Source: Flagellimonas aurea
GTDB taxonomy: Bacteria; Bacteroidota; Bacteroidia; Flavobacteriales; Flavobacteriaceae
Direction: 5' to 3'
NCBI RefSeq assembly: GCF_017313785.1
Contig: NZ_JAFLNL010000010.1
Location: 120,766 to 184,765, forward strand
DNA length: 64,000 bases
Part shown: in pieces, positions 55,556 to 64,000 of the stretch
Position numbering within the stretch: the first letter of the stretch is position 1
Layout of the letters: the number at the start of each line of letters is the position of its first letter
Position numbers and translations under genes: made by a program
Notes under the pieces: model-generated
Databases searched by the model: none
The model's input: the letters and a program-made list of their open reading frames with translations, nothing else
What the model was told of the DNA's origin: nothing

Positions 55556-55579
55556 CAATAATATTTAAATTGAAAAATA

Positions 55580-55611
55580 AGCCCTATTGCCTTGGTAATG
55601 GGGCTTTTTTT
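55580..55611 (+). terminator. Terminator after the ferritin-like pair
   Basis: AGCCCTATT/AATGGGGCT stem followed by TTTTTTT. Confidence 0.85.
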
Positions 55612-55636
55612 GTTGGAACAAAAAGATATAAAACCA

Positions 55637-55663
55637 AAAAAGCTCCGAGAAATCGGAGCTTTT
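55637..55663. terminator. Perfect hairpin next to the att-like site
   Basis: AAAAAGCTCCGA, GAAA loop, TCGGAGCTTTTT: symmetric 12-bp stem able to terminate both ways. Its position is right for the original terminator of a minus-strand tRNA-Asp whose 3' end begins at 55664. Confidence 0.8.
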
Positions 55664-55679
55664 TGCGGTCTGGACGGGA
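55664..55679 (-). other. Candidate att site: 16 nt identical to a tRNA-Asp 3' end
   Basis: On the minus strand it reads TCCCGTCCAGACCGCA, which matches (from memory) the T-stem end, acceptor stem and discriminator of Bacteroidetes tRNA-Asp; the rest of the tRNA is not here. It lies 113 bp before the integrase, with the likely tRNA terminator hairpin on the other side. Confidence 0.5.
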
Positions 55680-55792
55680 TGCCACCCTGCATTTTTAACA
55701 TTTCATTAACTTACATTATTTTATTGATTATCAATTAATTAAATGTATGTTGATTTTTATTTTACATCATAAAACACTACTTTTCATGAAAA

Positions 55793-57055
55793 ATGCAGCA
55801 CGAATGCAGCACGCAAATGTATAATTACAACTTTTATATTTCAGAATCACCAAACAAAAATGGAACCCATAGTATCAAATTAAGATACTATGAAAATCGT
55901 CATGTAAGAATCCAAATCGATACGGGAATTGAAATTGCAATGAAGTATTGGAACAAGGATAAATCGTTCCTTAAAAAATCAAAGGAAGTGGGTTCTGAAT
56001 TTGTTCAACTTACCCAAATGGACAGCTTGGCCAATCAAATTGTTTCCAGCTATCGAAATCAAGGCAGGCCACTTTCAAAAAAGATGTTCAAGAAACAATT
56101 TGAAGAAGGTGAACCGTCCATCAATTCAAAACCTGTCCAAGACTTTTTTACTGAATTTGACCATTATCTAGAAAGCAAAAAGAGCAAGGTGGTCAAAGAT
56201 GTTATCAAGGATTATAATTCACTTAGAAAGCATTTGGAGGGTTTCCAGGAATTTTCGGGAATCATCATCGATTTCAATGCTTTTGATTATCATTTCTACC
56301 AAGAATGGACGGACTACCTAGCCTACCATGCTCCATTAAAAAATGGAGGTGTCGGAATGAAGAATAACACGATAGGCAAGTTAGTGAAAAACTTAAAGGC
56401 CTTCTTAAATGACCGTATGCGTAGAAACCGTATCAAGCCCATAGATCTTTCGGCATTCAAGGTAGTTCAAGAAGAAGTGGACCACATCTATTTGTCCGAT
56501 GATGAAATTCAGGCTATTGCAGCCGTTGATTGTAAAGCCGACAAAGAATTGGAGAAAGTAAAAGACTTCTTTGTAATTGGGTGTTTGACAGGGCTTCGGT
56601 TTTCCGATATTTCGAGGATTCGACCTGAGTATTTGGATGATAATGGGTTTTTGAATATCCGACAAAAGAAGACTTCTGGCCGAATTGTAGTGCCACTTCG
56701 TTCCCAAGTCAAGAGCATTTTGGGAAAATATGATGGATATGCCCCGGATATTGATTCGTTCACTTTCAACAAGCGCATAAAGGAACTTGGGGATTCAGCC
56801 AAACTTCACCAAAAAGTGGAAATTGAGCATAAACGGGGAACCATTAAAGAAGCACAACTTTTGGAGAAATATAAATTGATAAGTTCCCATACCTGTAGGC
56901 GTTCCTTTTGTACCAATGCTTACCTAAATGGTATTGATGTGCAACTCATCATGAAGATTTCCGGCCATAAATCAGAAAAGGCTTTCCGTCGTTATCTCAA
57001 AATTTCAAATTATGAGGCCGCCCAAAAATTGAAAGAGGCCTGGGGAATTTCATAA
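55793..57055 (+). CDS. Tyrosine-type site-specific integrase
   Basis: 420 residues. N-terminal arm-binding domain (about 10-90, NKNGTHSIKLRYYENRHVRIQ), SAM-like core-binding domain (about 110-210), catalytic domain from about 225. The tyrosine recombinase residues are visible: Arg in TGLRFSDISRI, His-x-x-Arg in SSHTCRRSF, the second His in KISGHKSEKAF and the nucleophile Tyr in RRYLKIS. This is the Bacteroidetes conjugative-element/island integrase type. An ATG at 55786 is out of frame and leads to a short peptide ending at TAA. Next to the att-like site. Confidence 0.95.
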   Translation: MQHECSTQMYNYNFYISESPNKNGTHSIKLRYYENRHVRIQIDTGIEIAMKYWNKDKSFLKKSKEVGSEFVQLTQMDSLANQIVSSYRNQGRPLSKKMFKKQFEEGEPSINSKPVQDFFTEFDHYLESKKSKVVKDVIKDYNSLRKHLEGFQEFSGIIIDFNAFDYHFYQEWTDYLAYHAPLKNGGVGMKNNTIGKLVKNLKAFLNDRMRRNRIKPIDLSAFKVVQEEVDHIYLSDDEIQAIAAVDCKADKELEKVKDFFVIGCLTGLRFSDISRIRPEYLDDNGFLNIRQKKTSGRIVVPLRSQVKSILGKYDGYAPDIDSFTFNKRIKELGDSAKLHQKVEIEHKRGTIKEAQLLEKYKLISSHTCRRSFCTNAYLNGIDVQLIMKISGHKSEKAFRRYLKISNYEAAQKLKEAWGIS

Positions 57056-57086: not shown

Positions 57087-58214
57087 TCAAACTTCGTTTT
57101 TGAATTTTAAGTTTAGTGAGTACCGTGTGCTTTTGAGTTCCCCAGATTTGACTAATATGGATTTGTTGACCAAATCCTTTAAATCACGTGTGGCTGTTGA
57201 TGCTGATGTTCGGGCAATACGGATATAATTATCCGCACTAAGGCCTCCTTTAAATCCATTATATCCAGCTTTGAACATACGTTGGACTACTTTTAGCTGG
57301 CGTTCGTTCATCAAACGGGAGTATTGATCAAAGAATCTGGCTTTTTGAATCAAAAAGTCAATGGTTTTGATGGTGTGTTGTTGTGATGAAAGTATAGTTT
57401 CCCCAAAGTATAGTAGGAATTCAGTAAGGTCTAGTTTGAAATTATGGGCTTCGATGGAAGAATAGTATTCTTTTTTGTTTGACTCGATGGTCTGTGATAG
57501 GGATATAAGTGCTGGTCTTCCCAAATCCATGGAAATGGATTTTTCGGAAAGCCCTCTAGCAATACGTCCATTTCCATCTTCAAAGGGGTGGATGGCCAAA
57601 AAGTAATAATGTGCCAATCCTGACTTGGCCAATGGAAGCATTTTGGATTTGTTTGTCGTATGGGTTTCGTTGAACCAACGAATATAAGCTTCCATTTCAT
57701 TTGTCATTATTGATGAGGGGGGTGCCTCATAATGTACCGTCGGCTTGTCGAGGCGTCCTGAAACAACCTGCATAGGATCTTCATGGGTACGATATCTTCC
57801 AATATCCACTAAATCCCTTCTACCATTGGCGAGCATCTGATGCCACTCAAAAAGTTGTTCATGGGTCAATGGTACTGCATATGTTCGATATAGATTGACC
57901 ATCATTTCAGATATTCCATATTCAGCTTGGGGAAGTTTCTTTCTTTCCGTTTCAAGTCCCAGGTTTTTTTTGATGGATTCCTGAATACTCCCACGGTCAA
58001 GATATTCCCCTTCAATTGCCGAAGTAGTTAGTGCCTCATTCGACAAAACCTCAATTAAAAGCTCATTTTTGTCTTCCTCATCAATATGTTTAATGGAACC
58101 TATTGCCACTCCACTAGTTTGGACAAACTGATATTCCAAGTCCTCCAAAGCTGCTTCATCATATCTGAAATTGGGCCAGTCTTGTTGTTGCCAGTTCCAT
58201 TTAAAAGCTGTCAT
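57087..58214 (-). CDS. Fic family protein with DUF4172-type N-domain and wHTH
   Basis: 375 residues. The Fic core (about 120-250) carries HPFEDGNGRIAR, the complete HPFxDGNGRxxR AMP-transferase motif. An N-terminal inhibitory helix TSAIEGE fits the (S/T)xxxE(G/N) class II motif, so the enzyme is likely autoinhibited. The C-terminus (about 305-375) is a winged-helix domain, possibly autoregulatory. Fic proteins transfer AMP to targets, and the target here is unknown. Convergent with the integrase gene, with three operator-like repeats upstream. Possibly an addiction or stress module of the element (inferred). Confidence 0.9.
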   Translation of the reverse strand: MTAFKWNWQQQDWPNFRYDEAALEDLEYQFVQTSGVAIGSIKHIDEEDKNELLIEVLSNEALTTSAIEGEYLDRGSIQESIKKNLGLETERKKLPQAEYGISEMMVNLYRTYAVPLTHEQLFEWHQMLANGRRDLVDIGRYRTHEDPMQVVSGRLDKPTVHYEAPPSSIMTNEMEAYIRWFNETHTTNKSKMLPLAKSGLAHYYFLAIHPFEDGNGRIARGLSEKSISMDLGRPALISLSQTIESNKKEYYSSIEAHNFKLDLTEFLLYFGETILSSQQHTIKTIDFLIQKARFFDQYSRLMNERQLKVVQRMFKAGYNGFKGGLSADNYIRIARTSASTATRDLKDLVNKSILVKSGELKSTRYSLNLKFKNEV

Positions 58215-58540: not shown

Positions 58541-59104
58541 ATGGATAAAAAAAACAAGATCATCAGTGCCGGGCTTGCCCTTATAGAGGAAAGGGGCCTC
58601 CATAGAACACCCATGTCCATGATCGCTGAAAGGGCCGATGTGGGGATGGGAACCGTTTATAGATACTTTGAAAATAAGGAGGACATCATAAACGCGATCT
58701 ATATCAGGATAAAGGAAGAGGAAGCGGCCATTGTATTTGTTAACAACTCCATCCACAAGGATGTGGAATCTACCTTCTTTGATTACTATACAAGGATGGT
58801 GCACTATTTTGTGGAAAACCCCGTCCGTTTCAATTTCATAAGCCAATATGCTTTTTCCCCCATCATTAACGAAAACACCCAGAAGGAAGCGATGTCCAAT
58901 TTTCATCATTTTGATGAGATGTACCAGAAAGGCCTAGACCAGGGCATTTTCAAGGACATCAAGGCGGAGCACTTGACCTTTTTTGTGTTCAGTGCCATTG
59001 CTGGATGGCTGAAATCCGCATCTGAACTGGGCATAAAGGTGACCAAAAAATATAGGGAAACACTTGTTAAAATGGCGTGGGATTCGGTACTGAAAACCTC
59101 TTAA
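58541..59104 (+). CDS. TetR/AcrR family regulator
   Basis: 187 residues. The N-terminal HTH (residues 1-50: KIISAGLALIEERGLHRTPMSMIAERADVGMGTVYRYFENK) is a classic TetR DNA-binding domain, followed by a helical ligand domain. A TetR-type palindrome lies between this gene and the SDR gene. It likely represses the seven-gene downstream operon; the inducer is unknown. Confidence 0.92.
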   Translation: MDKKNKIISAGLALIEERGLHRTPMSMIAERADVGMGTVYRYFENKEDIINAIYIRIKEEEAAIVFVNNSIHKDVESTFFDYYTRMVHYFVENPVRFNFISQYAFSPIINENTQKEAMSNFHHFDEMYQKGLDQGIFKDIKAEHLTFFVFSAIAGWLKSASELGIKVTKKYRETLVKMAWDSVLKTS

Positions 59105-59120
59105 GTTTTTTTTAACAAAT

Positions 59121-59138
59121 ACTGAATGAATATTCAGT
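59121..59138. promoter_or_regulatory. TetR-type operator before the SDR operon
   Basis: ACTGAATGAATATTCAGT, a near-perfect inverted repeat of the TGAATGA/TATTCA type bound by many TetR proteins. It lies in the -33 zone of the TAGATTTG box at 59149-59156. Confidence 0.7.
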
Positions 59139-59148
59139 CACGGAAAAA

Positions 59149-59156
59149 TAGATTTG
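59149..59156 (+). promoter_or_regulatory. -10 box (TAGATTTG) of the SDR operon
   Basis: TAnnTTTG 25 bp before the SDR ATG, just downstream of the TetR operator. Confidence 0.6.
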
Positions 59157-59181
59157 GCCCGTTAACTATAAAATCCATGTT

Positions 59182-59937
59182 ATGGGCAAAATCGATTTAA
59201 AGGACAAAGTGGTCCTAATAGCCGGAGGCGGCAAAAACCTTGGGGGCCTTTTGAGCAGAAACTTTGCGGCCAAAGGGGCAAAATTGGCAATCCATTATAA
59301 TAGTGACAGTTCCAAAGCTGCCAGTGAAGAAACACTGAAGGCGATCAAGGCAGCAGGAGGGGAAGGGTTTCTCTACCAAGCGGACTTGACCAAGGTAGGG
59401 AACATCACCAAATTCTTCGACGAGACCATTGCCAGATATGGCGGTGTGGACATAGCCATCAATACCGTGGGAATGGTATTGAAAAAACCTTTTGTCGATA
59501 CTTCCGAGGAGGAATATGATACCATGTCGGAAATCAATTCCAAGGTCGCTTACTTCTTCATCAAGGAAGCAGGCAAAAAATTGAACGACAACGGTAAGAT
59601 ATGTACCATAGTGACATCGTTGTTGGCGGCCTATACGGGACTGTATTCCACTTATGAGGGTATGAAGGCACCCGTGGAGCATTTTACCAGGGCCGCATCC
59701 AAGGAATTTGGCAATAGGGGCATTTCCGTCACTGCTGTGGGACCTGGGCCCATGGACACACCTTTCTTCTATGGTCAGGAATCCGATGATGCCGTGGCCT
59801 ACCATAAATCCGCATCCGCTTTGGGAGGATTGACAGATATCAAGGACATAGCGCCGTTAATCGAGTTTTTGGTCACGGATGGATGGTGGATCACGGGACA
59901 GACCATCTTCGCCAACGGAGGGTATACAACACGATAA
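59182..59937 (+). CDS. SDR family oxidoreductase
   Basis: 251-residue short-chain dehydrogenase/reductase. Dinucleotide-binding AGGGKNLGG (residues 14-22, slightly atypical TGxxxGxG), INTVGMV (NNAG-like, atypical) and the catalytic set Ser in IVTSLLAAY, Tyr and Lys in STYEGMKAPVEHF; PGPMDTPFF after it. It resembles 3-ketoacyl-ACP reductase-like SDRs; the substrate is unknown. First gene after the TetR operator. Confidence 0.9.
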   Translation: MGKIDLKDKVVLIAGGGKNLGGLLSRNFAAKGAKLAIHYNSDSSKAASEETLKAIKAAGGEGFLYQADLTKVGNITKFFDETIARYGGVDIAINTVGMVLKKPFVDTSEEEYDTMSEINSKVAYFFIKEAGKKLNDNGKICTIVTSLLAAYTGLYSTYEGMKAPVEHFTRAASKEFGNRGISVTAVGPGPMDTPFFYGQESDDAVAYHKSASALGGLTDIKDIAPLIEFLVTDGWWITGQTIFANGGYTTR

Positions 59938-59996
59938 CCAGTTGAACGGGGCCCATTTACCGTTTTAGGTCAAATGGGCTTTAATATAGTATTAAA

Positions 59997-60344
59997 ATGG
60001 TAACAAAAATCGGCAGTGCGGCATTGCTTTTGACCATTGTCTTTATGGGGGTCAAGCAAGGTATGGCCATGATGACGGGAAAACCAGAAATGTTGGAAAT
60101 GTTCGGCAAGTGGGACTTTGGAAAGTTAGGGGTAATGGTCTTTGGTGCATTGACCTTATTGAGCACAGTATTGATCATCGTGCCCAAAACATTTGTGTGG
60201 GGCAATTTTTTGATGGCTGCGACCATTTTATTTATCATTTGTTTCCAACTGTTCCATGGGAATTTAAAGGGAGCGGCAGTGGAAGTGCCTTTTTTGCTCC
60301 TTAACCTGATCGTACTCTACTTAAGACACCCTTTGAACAGTTAA
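59997..60344 (+). CDS. Small four-helix membrane protein, DoxX-like
   Basis: 115 residues with hydrophobic segments at about 5-20, 42-62, 68-86 and 92-108 and a loop MMTGKPEMLEMFGKWDFGKLG. Looks like a DoxX-type or DUF4267-like small membrane protein, but family assignment is weak. Part of the TetR-controlled run (59 bp after SDR). Confidence 0.7.
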   Translation: MVTKIGSAALLLTIVFMGVKQGMAMMTGKPEMLEMFGKWDFGKLGVMVFGALTLLSTVLIIVPKTFVWGNFLMAATILFIICFQLFHGNLKGAAVEVPFLLLNLIVLYLRHPLNS

Positions 60345-60413
60345 TCGTATATTGTATTACCTGTATTTGGGAAAGGCCGGAATCAAAAAATTGAACGACT
60401 CAATAAGGAAACA

Positions 60414-60734
60414 ATGGATATGGACATCATAACCAACGAAACCGTAAGGGGTGCCATAACAGCACTCCAGGACAAGGACCCGAAGAAATGGTCGTCCTAT
60501 TTTACAACGGACGCCAAAATGACCGATGATGGGAACCCAAGGAATCTTTGGAGCTTTTCCAGAAATGCGGTCGGTGAGGAATGGTTCACCGAAATACACC
60601 GTGTGGAAAACGACGGGAAGGACATCTATGGACATCTTACCACAAAACAGTGGGGTGCCTTCAACGTGTATTTTAAGTTCCATGTGGATGCCGATGGCAA
60701 AATATACCAACTGGATATAGGACAGGCCCATTGA
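60414..60734 (+). CDS. NTF2/SnoaL-like protein
   Basis: 106 residues with the cone-shaped NTF2-like pattern: ITALQDKDPKKWSSYFTTDAKMTDDG, a central IHRVENDGKDIYGHL and a C-terminal YFKFHVDADGKIYQLDIGQ. Such domains bind small molecules or catalyse isomerisations; no active residues can be named. Followed two bases later by the K+ channel ATG. Confidence 0.8.
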   Translation: MDMDIITNETVRGAITALQDKDPKKWSSYFTTDAKMTDDGNPRNLWSFSRNAVGEEWFTEIHRVENDGKDIYGHLTTKQWGAFNVYFKFHVDADGKIYQLDIGQAH

Positions 60735-60736
60735 CA

Positions 60737-61411
60737 ATGCTTCCAGGTTTATATAAAATGGCGCAAAGGTATAAGTATGAGATATTGTTGATGTCCTTAT
60801 TGGCACATCTCTATATCGGTATCATATTGAGCGACCTGCCCTTTTACACCAAAGTGATATGGCCCGTTAACATGCTTGTTATTGGCGTGGCCAGTATTGG
60901 CGTATTTATGGAGAAGGGACGTTCAAAGAACATTATCAAGAACAGCTTGTTGGCATTGGCCATCATTCTGCCCATCAGTATCCCGGTCGTGGGGCACCTT
61001 CAGTATTTCATGACCATATTGAGTGCCATGTACTGTCTGTTCTTTGGTTTTATCCTCATAGAGATCTTGCGTTATCTTGTAAGACCGAACTATATCGATA
61101 CGGACATCATCTCGGCTTCCGCCTGTGGCTTCTTCCTGCTCATTGAAATCGCCACTTTTTTGTTCCAGGCCCTCTATTATTTGGACAATACGGCCATCAA
61201 GAACATTGACGCTACACAAGCTGCGACCATCTATATGGATCTGGTGTATTTCAGTTCCATTACCGTTACCACAATTGGTTTCGGGGATATTGTCCCGAAT
61301 TCCCATGGCACCAAATTGATCGTGGCACTTTTTGGGGTGGCAAGTCAATTTTATACCGTGGTATTGATAGGCATTCTCATCAGTAAATTTGTTTCACAAC
61401 AAGAAAAATAA
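60737..61411 (+). CDS. Two-pore-helix type K+ channel (VIC-like)
   Basis: 224 residues from the ATG at 60737 (a TTG six bases earlier overlaps the previous stop). Four hydrophobic segments in the first 110 residues, one near 130-150, then a pore helix and selectivity filter TVTTIGFGD and a last membrane helix. TIGFGD is a K+ filter. There is no RCK/TrkA domain or charged S4, so gating is unclear. It is followed by the bestrophin with a 7-bp gap. Confidence 0.88.
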   Translation: MLPGLYKMAQRYKYEILLMSLLAHLYIGIILSDLPFYTKVIWPVNMLVIGVASIGVFMEKGRSKNIIKNSLLALAIILPISIPVVGHLQYFMTILSAMYCLFFGFILIEILRYLVRPNYIDTDIISASACGFFLLIEIATFLFQALYYLDNTAIKNIDATQAATIYMDLVYFSSITVTTIGFGDIVPNSHGTKLIVALFGVASQFYTVVLIGILISKFVSQQEK

Positions 61412-61418
61412 TCCAGCC

Positions 61419-62426
61419 ATGCACATAGGTAGTCATTATAGGATAGGTACTTTTTTATTCTGGACCAGAAGGAACATTCTCAAGTTGTTCCTTTGGGCCG
61501 TTTTCCCTACGGTATTGTACGGGGTATTTGATCTGAAGTGGCTGGCCATTCCTTGGCAACCTGTCGCCTTGGTGGGTACTGCCGCTGCATTCATTGCAGG
61601 GTTCAAGAACACGCAGACCTATGGACGTTTGTGGGAGGCCCGTAAAATATGGGGAGCCATAGTAAATGACAGTAGGACATGGGGGATTATGTCCAGGGAT
61701 TTCATAGTGAATACAGACTGTTCAAAGGAAGACCTGCATCCGATCCACAAGCGGCTCATATATCGCCATATTGCTTGGTTGACCGCACTACGGTTTCAGT
61801 TGCGGCAGCCAAAACCTTGGGAGAACATGGACAGGCCCCATGCCAAAGAGTTCAGAAAACGCTATAGTGTACCGGAATGGGAGTCACAGATACAGGAACA
61901 GATGAGGCCCTATCTGTCCAAAGAAGATATGGACCATGTCCTTCAAAAGAAAAACAGGGCCACACAGCTTTTGGCCCTACAATCAATGGATCTAAGGGAA
62001 TTGCGAAAGAAAGGGTTGATCGGGGAATATCCGTATGTGGGTATGGAATCGGTTTTAAAGGATTTTTTCACCCATCAGGGAAGGGCGGAGCGCATCAAAA
62101 ACTTTCCCTATCCAAGACAGTTTGCCAGTATCAACATGTTCTTCATCGTACTGTTCTCCATTTTGGTCCCTTTTGGGATGCTCGATGAGTTTGCCAAACT
62201 TGGTGAATACGGTGTTTGGCTGACCATACCCTTCAGTGTGGTCGTGGGTTGGGTGTTCACCTCCTTGGAACAAGTGGGCGAAAGCACGGAAAACCCGTTT
62301 GAGGGAGGGGCCAACGACATCCCAATGGCAGCATTGTCGCGTACCATAGAGATCGATTTGAGAGAAATGTTGGATGAAACCGACCTTCCGCCCAATGTGG
62401 AACCCGTGGATGAAATATTGATGTAG
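61419..62426 (+). CDS. Bestrophin family anion channel
   Basis: 335 residues from the ATG at 61419 (MHIGSHYRIG). Bestrophin/UPF0187 signatures: FIAGFKNTQTYGRLWEARKIWGAIVNDSR (conserved RxWEARxxWGxxVNxSR), RHIAWLTALRFQLR and the C-terminal IPFSVVVGWVFTSLEQVGESTENPFEGGANDIPM. Bestrophins form pentameric anion or bicarbonate channels. The adjacency to an LCIB-type carbonic anhydrase suggests HCO3- transport here (inference). Inner-membrane. Confidence 0.93.
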   Translation: MHIGSHYRIGTFLFWTRRNILKLFLWAVFPTVLYGVFDLKWLAIPWQPVALVGTAAAFIAGFKNTQTYGRLWEARKIWGAIVNDSRTWGIMSRDFIVNTDCSKEDLHPIHKRLIYRHIAWLTALRFQLRQPKPWENMDRPHAKEFRKRYSVPEWESQIQEQMRPYLSKEDMDHVLQKKNRATQLLALQSMDLRELRKKGLIGEYPYVGMESVLKDFFTHQGRAERIKNFPYPRQFASINMFFIVLFSILVPFGMLDEFAKLGEYGVWLTIPFSVVVGWVFTSLEQVGESTENPFEGGANDIPMAALSRTIEIDLREMLDETDLPPNVEPVDEILM

Positions 62427-62452
62427 AATAACCTATACAAACAAACGACAAC

Positions 62453-63187
62453 ATGAAAGATTTTTTGGAAACAGTAAAACAGTTTTATCCCAATGCCAAG
62501 ACCACGGAGAATACCGTGAACGACATGCTCCAAATAATAGAGGATAAATATGGTATCGGGACCCATCAGATCATGCATGCCGACAGCCTGTGCTGTGATG
62601 ATGTCAATGCCATACAATATCCTCCCAAGGCATATGAGATGTTGGGACCTTTTCATCTGGGAGGTCTGGATGGCTATCCTTTTGCAGGGTTGACGGGCAT
62701 GGGTGCGTTCGCGCACCATGTACCAGAGGATGGGGCCATCTTGATATTCTACGCACCGCATATTGGGGTGACCAAAGAGGGAAAGATCGGTGAGATCAAC
62801 AGATATGGCCAAAGTTCAAACTCTTCCTGTTGTGGGGCCGCACAAGCCGGTCTGGCAAAGCTTAGGGACAATAAGATAAAAGAAGGGGAGTTGACAAGGG
62901 ACGACTACCAACAGAACACCATTGAACAGATATTGCTGGCCGAAAAGGATAGGATATCCAGGTCGGAAAATCAGATCTTTGAGGCGACCGAGGTCATCTA
63001 TGAGGCCATTGACAAACAGATCGGTCATTTGGTCTCAAGAACAGAGTATCCGTGCGATCATTTGTTCAGGGTTGGTGGCATCTTCATCAATGGGGACAGG
63101 GATATGGGTTCATACTGTTCCTATAAAAGGTTTGAACATGTGGACCTGAACTCAGGAAAGGTAACAGATTTGATGGAATTTTTTTAA
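62453..63187 (+). CDS. LCIB-family (beta-carbonic-anhydrase-like) protein
   Basis: 244 residues. The N-terminal 130 residues match LCIB/LCIC of algae: MHADSLCCDDVN, FHLGGLDGYPFAGLTGMGAFAHHVP, APHIGV...GKIGEI and SSCCGAAQAGL. Cys (SLCC), His (FAHH) and Cys (SCCGA) fit the zinc ligands of that family, and Asp of DDVN could be the catalytic dyad partner. The C-terminal half is helical with a mixed beta end. Some LCIB homologues are active CAs and others not, so activity is unproven. It follows the bestrophin by 26 bp. No signal peptide: cytoplasmic. Confidence 0.88.
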   Translation: MKDFLETVKQFYPNAKTTENTVNDMLQIIEDKYGIGTHQIMHADSLCCDDVNAIQYPPKAYEMLGPFHLGGLDGYPFAGLTGMGAFAHHVPEDGAILIFYAPHIGVTKEGKIGEINRYGQSSNSSCCGAAQAGLAKLRDNKIKEGELTRDDYQQNTIEQILLAEKDRISRSENQIFEATEVIYEAIDKQIGHLVSRTEYPCDHLFRVGGIFINGDRDMGSYCSYKRFEHVDLNSGKVTDLMEFF

Positions 63188-63902
63188 CCGTTTTGATTGG
63201 AAAACAAAATTGGGCTATACATTTTCTGGAGAATAACAGACATTAAAATGGTGTCATCGCCACATCATATTTTTTGGAAAGAATTACTGCCATAAATGAA
63301 TATTATCCCTATGGTTTTACATTGTTTCATATTTATAAAACCGGACTATCCTATTGGGCAGAATTAAAATCTACAACATAAACCGTTAAACAGAAAGGGA
63401 ATTGTACATTTTAATTTACCATTTACATGAGCTTAAATTTTTACTGGTGAAAGGGGGGACTTTCGCCCGGTGGGGGTAATATAATATGGTTGGTGTTTTC
63501 ACTTCTTTATAGCATCAAATGACATTTATATAAAGCAATAGTTAATGCTTTATACAAATGTATAATCATACATCTGTATAAATATTTGTGGGAAGGGAGA
63601 AAGAAGACAATGGCTAGAGATTGTCCGAGTGTTGGCGTAAACTGAATTCTTTTTCTCCCTACCCATATTTATATAGCTGTTGCCAAAAACATCGTTTTTG
63701 GCAACAGCTTAGAAGGAATCGAATAGGTAAGCACCCCAGGGTGCTTACCATCCCTATCTTAGATTCGACCTCAATTCCTATACAAATTTGTTTTGAATGT
63801 TCCTTGATTTGCCATACATAAACTGATGTACGGTAAACGGGTTAAATGCTGTTCAATGTTGCTAGGTTTGTTCAATAAAGTAAATCAACAAATAACGGTA
63901 AT
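63188..63902. other. Structured non-coding region of about 700 bp
   Basis: No gene supported. Contains four inverted repeats in 230 bp: TATAAAGCA/TGCTTTATA (63529-63537, 63546-63554); an overlapping 15-bp pair at 63549-63582 (TTTATACAAATGTAT / ATACATCTGTATAAA); a perfect 16-bp pair AGCTGTTGCCAAAAAC / GTTTTTGGCAACAGCT (63675-63709, ATC loop); and GGTAAGCACCC/GGGTGCTTACC (63726-63749). None has a T run, so they are not plain terminators. Origin, operator or RNA structure are possible. Confidence 0.6.
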
Positions 63903-64000
63903 ATGAAGCGCATATTTGTCATGGACGACGATGGATTAAAGGAGTACGTTCCTGTAGAATCTCTCAAAAACAATCCAGCTCCAAAACTGGAGGATAAGGA
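63903..64000 (+). CDS. Start of an unknown gene, cut by the right edge
   Basis: ATG at 63903 opens a frame that stays open to the end (MKRIFVMDDDGLKEYVPVES...). Too short to identify; the acidic, Lys/Pro-rich start does not match a family I know. It lies 150 bp after the structured repeats. Confidence 0.45.
   Translation, partial: MKRIFVMDDDGLKEYVPVESLKNNPAPKLEDK

Follow-up and report, generated by a model that had tools for sequence, protein, structure and literature searches.

The operon and its gene content

We analysed a 64,000-nucleotide stretch of Flagellimonas aurea DNA (RefSeq assembly GCF_017313785.1, contig NZ_JAFLNL010000010.1, positions 120,766 to 184,765 of the forward strand), hereafter the window, which contains a putative operon in which a bestrophin gene is followed by a gene for an LCIB-type carbonic anhydrase (CA). 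At window positions 58541-63187, seven open reading frames (ORFs), all on the plus strand, encode in this order a TetR-family regulator, a short-chain dehydrogenase/reductase (SDR), a DoxX-like membrane protein, a SnoaL/NTF2-like protein, a K+ channel (Kch), the bestrophin (BST) and the LCIB-type protein (Table 1). The regulator and SDR genes are separated by 77 bp, and the successive gaps downstream of the SDR gene are 59, 69, 2, 7 and 26 bp. An earlier reading of the letters alone (the original prediction) had described seven co-directional genes with gaps of 2-69 bp among the last six, a bestrophin, an LCIB-type protein with Cys/His/Cys zinc-ligand motifs and a channel with a TIGFGD filter. 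The ORF coordinates and the profile scores bear out this description, and K+ conduction is predicted for the channel.

Table 1. Features of the operon and of the mobile element around it (window coordinates)
Feature	Position	Strand	Evidence
attL-like left boundary of element, GCGGTCTGGACGGGA	55665..55679	+	end of blastn homology with congeners G796 and G822
Tyrosine integrase of element	55793..57055	+	Pfam Phage_integrase, Phage_int_SAM_5, Arm-DNA-bind_5
Fic-family protein, likely element cargo, outside operon	57087..58214	-	Pfam Fic and DUF4172
TetR-family regulator	58541..59104	+	Pfam TetR_N 57.7 bits
TetR operator-like palindrome, ACTGAATGAATATTCAGT	59121..59138	.	identical copy in L061
SDR	59182..59937	+	Pfam adh_short_C2 142.9 bits; NF009385 436.7 bits (cut-off 296)
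DoxX-like membrane protein	59997..60344	+	Pfam DoxX_2 25.5 bits, just under cut-off 26.3
SnoaL/NTF2-like protein	60414..60734	+	Pfam SnoaL_2 19.9 bits, below cut-off 27
K+ channel	60737..61411	+	Pfam Ion_trans_2 41.4 bits (cut-off 22.5); filter TTIGFGD
Bestrophin, Phe58 at KpBest Ile66 position	61419..62426	+	Pfam Bestrophin_2 153.1 bits; neck alignment
LCIB-type (theta) CA, predicted zinc ligands C47/H103/C127	62453..63187	+	Pfam LCIB_C_CA 216 bits; PDB matches; AlphaFold model
Start of excisionase-like HTH_17 gene	63903..64000	+	L037:18669-19999; NikA/MobC and MobA relaxase follow outside window

Bacterial LCIB proteins have reportedly been treated so far mostly as structural relatives of parts of the algal CO2-concentrating mechanism (CCM). 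The window protein scores far above the cut-off of 25 bits for PF18599 (LCIB_C_CA), and its PDB sequence matches (phmmer) include 6kfs (E 2.7e-30), PtLCIB4 (E 2.1e-24) and LCIB itself (E 3.7e-8). Comparison with LCIB/LCIC structures, which had been suggested as a check, recovered the LCIB fold: the AlphaFold model (pLDDT 92.5) reaches TM-scores of 0.83 to 6kfs, 0.77-0.83 to PtLCIB4 entries and 0.64-0.72 to LCIB (5k5w). In PtLCIB4 the zinc ligands are C46, H102 and C126 (PMC6352938). They correspond to C47, H103 and C127 of the window protein, and H88, altered by mutation in 5b5z, is equivalent to H89 (phmmer alignment, with the one-residue offset worked out by hand); these four residues and D49 are all kept in 95 of 95 aligned relatives. 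PtLCIB4 (PDB 5b5y) and 6kfs thus share the fold (TM 0.80-0.83) and the zinc ligands with the window protein but are only 28-29% identical to it (Foldseek alignments), and the latter is bacterial and linked to a bestrophin. By profile, ligands and fold, it is clearly a member of the LCIB-type (theta) CA family, with catalysis predicted.

For bacterial bestrophins, we know of no agreed physiological role. The window protein belongs to the family by a wide margin (PF25539, Bestrophin_2, cut-off 27 bits) and can be matched by sequence to KpBest, another bacterial bestrophin, from Klebsiella. KpBest is a Na+ channel with the neck residues I62/I66/F70, in which the substitution I66F favours Cl-; eukaryotic bestrophins have an I/F/F neck, and human bestrophins pass HCO3- well (PMC8496536). 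Unlike that of KpBest, the neck of the window protein reads T/F/F, its middle and last residues being those of the anion-type I/F/F neck and its first a Thr. Phe occupies the KpBest Ile66 position in all 60 LCIB-linked bestrophins whose sequence includes the neck (in the alignment, 53 of 53); among the 61 linked proteins, 59 were read by pattern and that of L087 by eye, and the incomplete one of L097 was left uncounted. The idea that the Phe neck in itself marks linkage to LCIB was rejected: the trait belongs to a wider subfamily and is also present in 14 of 51 unlinked Bacteroidota bestrophins, a non-random set of 30 frames from the searched loci and 21 frames from 20 regions chosen by frame length. 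Thirteen of those 14 are the frames closest to the window's (37-61% identity). Given that linked and unlinked proteins share this neck, the partner of LCIB appears to be an anion-type bestrophin subfamily that also exists without LCIB, its anion selectivity being predicted.

Conservation and spread of the bestrophin-LCIB pair

Among 397 genomes of the family, 8 encode LCIB, as do 35 of 395 genomes of the phylum. A scan of named genomes returned 271 LCIB relatives, of which the best 80 were analysed, so that counts on these 80 loci describe near relatives. A co-directional bestrophin gene lies within 400 bp of the LCIB gene in 59 of them (upstream in 53, downstream in 6), about 2 kb off in three and about 6 kb off in two. 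Within the LCIB clade of the window, 42 of 44 rows have a bestrophin within 2.5 kb. The search for this adjacency in other genomes, proposed together with the original prediction, therefore places the pairing far beyond the element described here. The protein families involved are already known. Their conserved combination was not met in our literature search, in which the matches listed (titles and starts of abstracts, with subscription literature mostly outside the scope) included no report of a bacterial bestrophin-LCIB operon. The observation is real, and it is broader than first stated.

The SDR, DoxX, SnoaL, Kch, BST and LCIB genes occur together in Chryseobacterium, Epilithonimonas and Siphonobacter, and the same set without the SDR in Foetidibacter. 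Variants of the module were found in Dyadobacter, Sphingobacterium, Emticicia, Runella and Chitinophaga, and the BST-LCIB pair also in two metagenome-assembled genomes of Acidobacteriota, for which a binning error is possible. Many loci keep BST-LCIB or Kch-BST-LCIB alone, and some operons include aldehyde dehydrogenase (ALDH), DJ-1/PfpI, SDR and methyltransferase genes, each identified through a single representative.

On the LCIB tree, in which 34 of 91 inner branches are weak, there are at least 11 changes in linkage to a bestrophin. The 15 family labels account for at least 37 changes, a count that is somewhat inflated by unmatched NCBI names and group codes. We read the patchy linkage and the mixing of families as signs of horizontal transfer. 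The transferable module that had been predicted thus gains support from the element in this genome, the patchy occurrence and the taxonomically mixed tree. Carriage on plasmids or phages elsewhere was considered and rejected, as LCIB had no tblastn match at 1e-5 in plasmid and phage collections.

Cation transporters beside the pair

The gene in front of the bestrophin-LCIB pair frequently encodes a transporter of monovalent cations, and its type varies. In the 27 homologues of the window K+ channel that were examined, the filter is TSIGFGD. Taking the nearest co-directional gene before the pair (n=54), we found 26 Ion_trans_2 channels, 7 Na_H_Exchanger antiporters and 1 TMEM175. This count omits 5 of the 59 BST-adjacent loci, which have no co-directional ORF within 400 bp, and uses the gene preceding LCIB for 5 loci with the bestrophin after LCIB; in L063, where the BST frame is split, the antiporter ORF was entered by hand. 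A recognised cation transporter lies no more than 4.5 kb away in 43 of 64 BST-adjacent rows: an Ion_trans_2 channel in 29, an antiporter in 13 and TMEM175 alone in 1 (the states of the window and of L047 were set by hand, and the three loci with a bestrophin about 2 kb off were counted as BST-adjacent). The antiporters of these relatives are of the CPA1 type, TIGR00831 scoring over its cut-off in both of the two tested. The transporter type switches at least seven times on the LCIB tree. Three unrelated monovalent-cation movers filling one position provide the strongest hint of mechanism, namely that the anion flux may need a cation partner; the charge-balancing role that had been proposed for the channel is supported by this swapping. 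Separately, a TMEM175 K+ channel gene abuts the 5' end of a Phe-neck bestrophin gene at L184:4534-6170, in a genome whose LCIB gene sits elsewhere.

Candidate operators

The TetR palindrome anticipated in front of the SDR gene is present, and the same 18 bp lie between the TetR and SDR genes of Chryseobacterium candidae (L061). Allowing up to one mismatch, the arms of ACTGAATGAATATTCAGT match once in the window, with 0.02 matches expected, and 2 of 100 shuffles match. The TetR proteins of the window and of L061 are only 36% identical over 127 aligned residues, and in L080, another locus with a TetR gene, the palindrome between the TetR and SDR genes is a different one, of 28 bp. TetR control, as originally proposed, is supported to the extent that ACTGAATGAATATTCAGT is a candidate operator, to which we infer that the regulator binds.

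Fifteen of the 80 loci encode a member of a cluster of AraC-type proteins that consist only of the helix-turn-helix (HTH) domain, and its gene usually precedes the operon. A second motif, AAAAGTTCACCAT, was first noticed by eye in the upstream sequences of some of these loci and counted afterwards. It has 16 exact copies in 1.44 Mb (mean 0.08, maximum 1 for 60 permuted patterns) and 30 copies with one mismatch (mean 3.4, maximum 13). Fourteen of the 16 exact copies lie just upstream of a module SDR, DoxX or AraC gene; of the other two, that in L073 precedes an unlinked AraC gene and that in L087 is about 0.6 kb upstream of the BST gene. In L070 and L075, copies with one mismatch precede a bare Kch-BST-LCIB unit. 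We consider AAAAGTTCACCAT a candidate operator of the small HTH-only AraC regulator. The motif sits upstream of TTTGT-like boxes, which we take to resemble the -7 element of Bacteroidota. The loci with AAAAGTTCACCAT are L064, L066, L067, L068, L073, L074, L077, L081, L084, L086, L087, L088, L090, L128 and L134.

Proposed function and alternative explanations

We propose that the operon encodes a stress-inducible module for CO2 hydration and HCO3-/cation efflux that serves cytoplasmic pH and ion balance, an account that we regard as evenly poised between right and wrong. The ions carried, the direction of flux and the physiological purpose are those that we infer. The core would consist of LCIB, the bestrophin and a monovalent-cation transporter, switched on when needed through TetR or AraC and often together with carbonyl/redox stress genes. 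LCIB would hydrate respiratory CO2 to HCO3- and H+, and the HCO3- would exit through the bestrophin, driven by an inside-negative membrane potential, with its charge balanced by outgoing K+ (through the channel or TMEM175) or Na+/K+ (through the CPA1 antiporter). The net effect would be export of K/NaHCO3 and retention of H+, and with it a controlled acidification of the cytoplasm and an adjustment of ions and volume. The benefit might arise at alkaline pH or during aldehyde/electrophile stress, by analogy with Kef, the potassium efflux system through which Gram-negative bacteria release K+, acidify and so withstand electrophiles (PMC10224563). This logic is suggested by the SDR, ALDH, DJ-1 and other stress genes that sit in some operons. 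The likeness to Kef K+/H+ efflux with its electrophile-response genes would lie in the combination of cation efflux, acidification and carbonyl detoxification; in contrast, no Na_H_Exchanger was found among the operon proteins of the window, which has an anion channel and a CA instead and is not a member of the Kef family. The bicarbonate, ion and pH balance of the original prediction thus persists as an interpretation consistent with the LCIB-bestrophin-cation transporter gene set.

The same two families would also suit a supply of inorganic carbon, since BST and LCIB both act in the CCM of Chlamydomonas (PMC6708349; PMC8825250). LCIB would then trap CO2 as HCO3-, and the bestrophin, much like its algal CCM counterparts, would import or redistribute it to feed anaplerotic carboxylases. 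We consider this unlikely. The host has no match to PF00016 (RuBisCO), which 5 of 14 control genomes do match, and it already carries a canonical beta-CA gene 10 bp after that of a SulP-family permease (L208:2789-5009, host contig C11); for these two reasons, CO2 recapture for carboxylation is less likely. Furthermore, with the cell interior negative, HCO3- would be expected to escape through a passive anion channel rather than be held. The occurrence is also patchy: 10 of 71 genomes of the genus have some LCIB match, and only the host has one more than 41% identical to the window protein. CO2 recapture or anaplerosis, which the original prediction had offered beside pH and ion balance, is therefore weakened. 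The SulP-beta-CA pair of the host resembles the module in placing an anion transporter beside a CA but differs in both partners, a SulP permease and a beta-CA against a bestrophin and LCIB.

Alternatively, the bestrophin could carry Cl- or another anion for control of membrane potential or osmolarity, with LCIB merely speeding CO2/HCO3- buffering in the same stress operon. Such a role agrees with the description of bestrophins as Cl- channels (PMC8496536), and a cation partner would fit salt efflux. What makes this explanation improbable to us is that bestrophin is paired with two CA families, which neither chance nor a loose stress link would lead one to expect. A beta-CA was detected in 69 of 70 bestrophin-bearing genomes searched, and in at least 4 of the 70 it adjoins the bestrophin (neighbours read by eye from coordinate tables); the chance expectation is about 0.2-0.3 (hand estimate). 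In three of these genomes the bestrophin gene is followed by a co-directional beta-CA gene (L207:7468-9091, L204:4391-5978 and L205:4152-5753, with gaps of 4, 16 and 27 bp), and in L206 the two genes are convergent. Because bestrophins adjoin beta-CA genes as well as LCIB genes, the partnership with CAs recurs, as judged by gene order, with two CA families. A xenobiotic or aldehyde detoxification operon (TetR/AraC, SDR, ALDH, DJ-1, SnoaL, DoxX) whose CO2 and ion genes handle by-products could account for the ALDH, SDR, DJ-1 and methyltransferase neighbours in part of the loci, yet it is very improbable, as many loci hold only BST-LCIB or Kch-BST-LCIB and AAAAGTTCACCAT with one mismatch stands directly before Kch in L070 and L075.

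Several observations weigh against the efflux module that we prefer. Among the 80 loci, 16 have no bestrophin in the DNA searched, some of them with little upstream DNA. In the phylum sample of 395 genomes, which was not picked by similarity, this LCIB type occurs in 5 genomes and is adjacent to a bestrophin in only 3; of the other 30 LCIB genomes in that sample, 29 have no bestrophin match and one has a bestrophin elsewhere. The at least 11 changes of linkage on the LCIB tree point in the same direction. The cation partner is not universal either: 20 of the 54 neighbouring genes fit none of Ion_trans_2, Na_H_Exchanger and TMEM175, and 21 of the 64 BST-adjacent rows have no recognised cation transporter within 4.5 kb. 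Many loci are also without stress-gene neighbours. With respect to the bestrophin, the Phe neck is shared by the unlinked proteins mentioned above, the first neck residue is Thr rather than Ile in nearly all linked ones, and three of the four bestrophins beside a beta-CA lack the Phe (read by eye), only that of L207 having it. Finally, LCIB and LCIC of Chlamydomonas have no CA activity in vitro (PMC8825250).

We advance more tentatively, and with some doubt, the general form of the efflux proposal: that a bicarbonate-cation efflux machine, inducible by stress and spread by horizontal transfer, is widespread in Bacteroidota, combines an LCIB-type CA and an anion-type bestrophin with whichever monovalent-cation transporter is available, and lowers the cytoplasmic pH when required. 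It would share the bestrophin and LCIB-type CA families with the CCMs of Chlamydomonas (BST1-3 with LCIB/LCIC) and diatoms (PtBST1), and differ from them in belonging to a bacterium without a RuBisCO match, in its arrangement as one operon, in the cation transporter and in the TetR/AraC-type regulators. If this holds, the bestrophin-CA partnership of the algal CCM would be a photosynthetic use of a pairing found also in heterotrophic bacteria, and the algal bestrophin-LCIB pairing may have counterparts remote from photosynthesis. A recurrent operon that couples bestrophin and LCIB to interchangeable cation transporters offers both families a concrete, testable function.

The mobile element and accessory genes

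In blastn comparisons with G796 and G822, two congeners, homology breaks off at one and the same base, window 55679. No second copy of the junction GCGGTCTGGACGGGA was found up to the contig end, and the right flank of G822 gave only a 42-base match to the host, so that the element's right end could not be placed. The integrase and the relaxase lie on one contig and flank the operon on either side, and they probably belong to one integrative mobilizable element. The mobile element of the original prediction is thus upheld for this genome by the integrase, the relaxase and the left break. We could not extend the claim further, and the evidence so far places the element in this genome only: with tblastn (E<=1e-5), the window integrase found no relative among the 80 other loci, which span at most 10 kb on each side and in which other integrase families were not searched. 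The congeners (L151/L152) also diverge from each other soon after the junction (window 55560-55680), and the site may therefore be an integration hot spot.

Among the accessory proteins, the SDR has 80-85% identical homologues in many module loci, and the DoxX-like protein has 28 homologous ORFs within 7.5 kb of LCIB across the 80 loci. The AlphaFold model of the SnoaL-like protein (pLDDT 94) has NTF2-like PDB matches. We considered this protein as an iota-CA and rejected the assignment: the alignment of its relatives (A4) contains no HHHSS-type motif, which we take to be the iota-CA motif, and no iota-CA is named among the 50 PDB matches listed. Most of the relatives in A4 have an N-terminal lipoprotein-like signal, which the window copy lacks. 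A perfect 16-bp inverted repeat with a 3-bp loop lies at window 63675-63709, between the operon and the excisionase-like gene, and an AbiEi/AbiEii toxin-antitoxin pair near the contig end (L038:5645-7182) is possibly on the same element.

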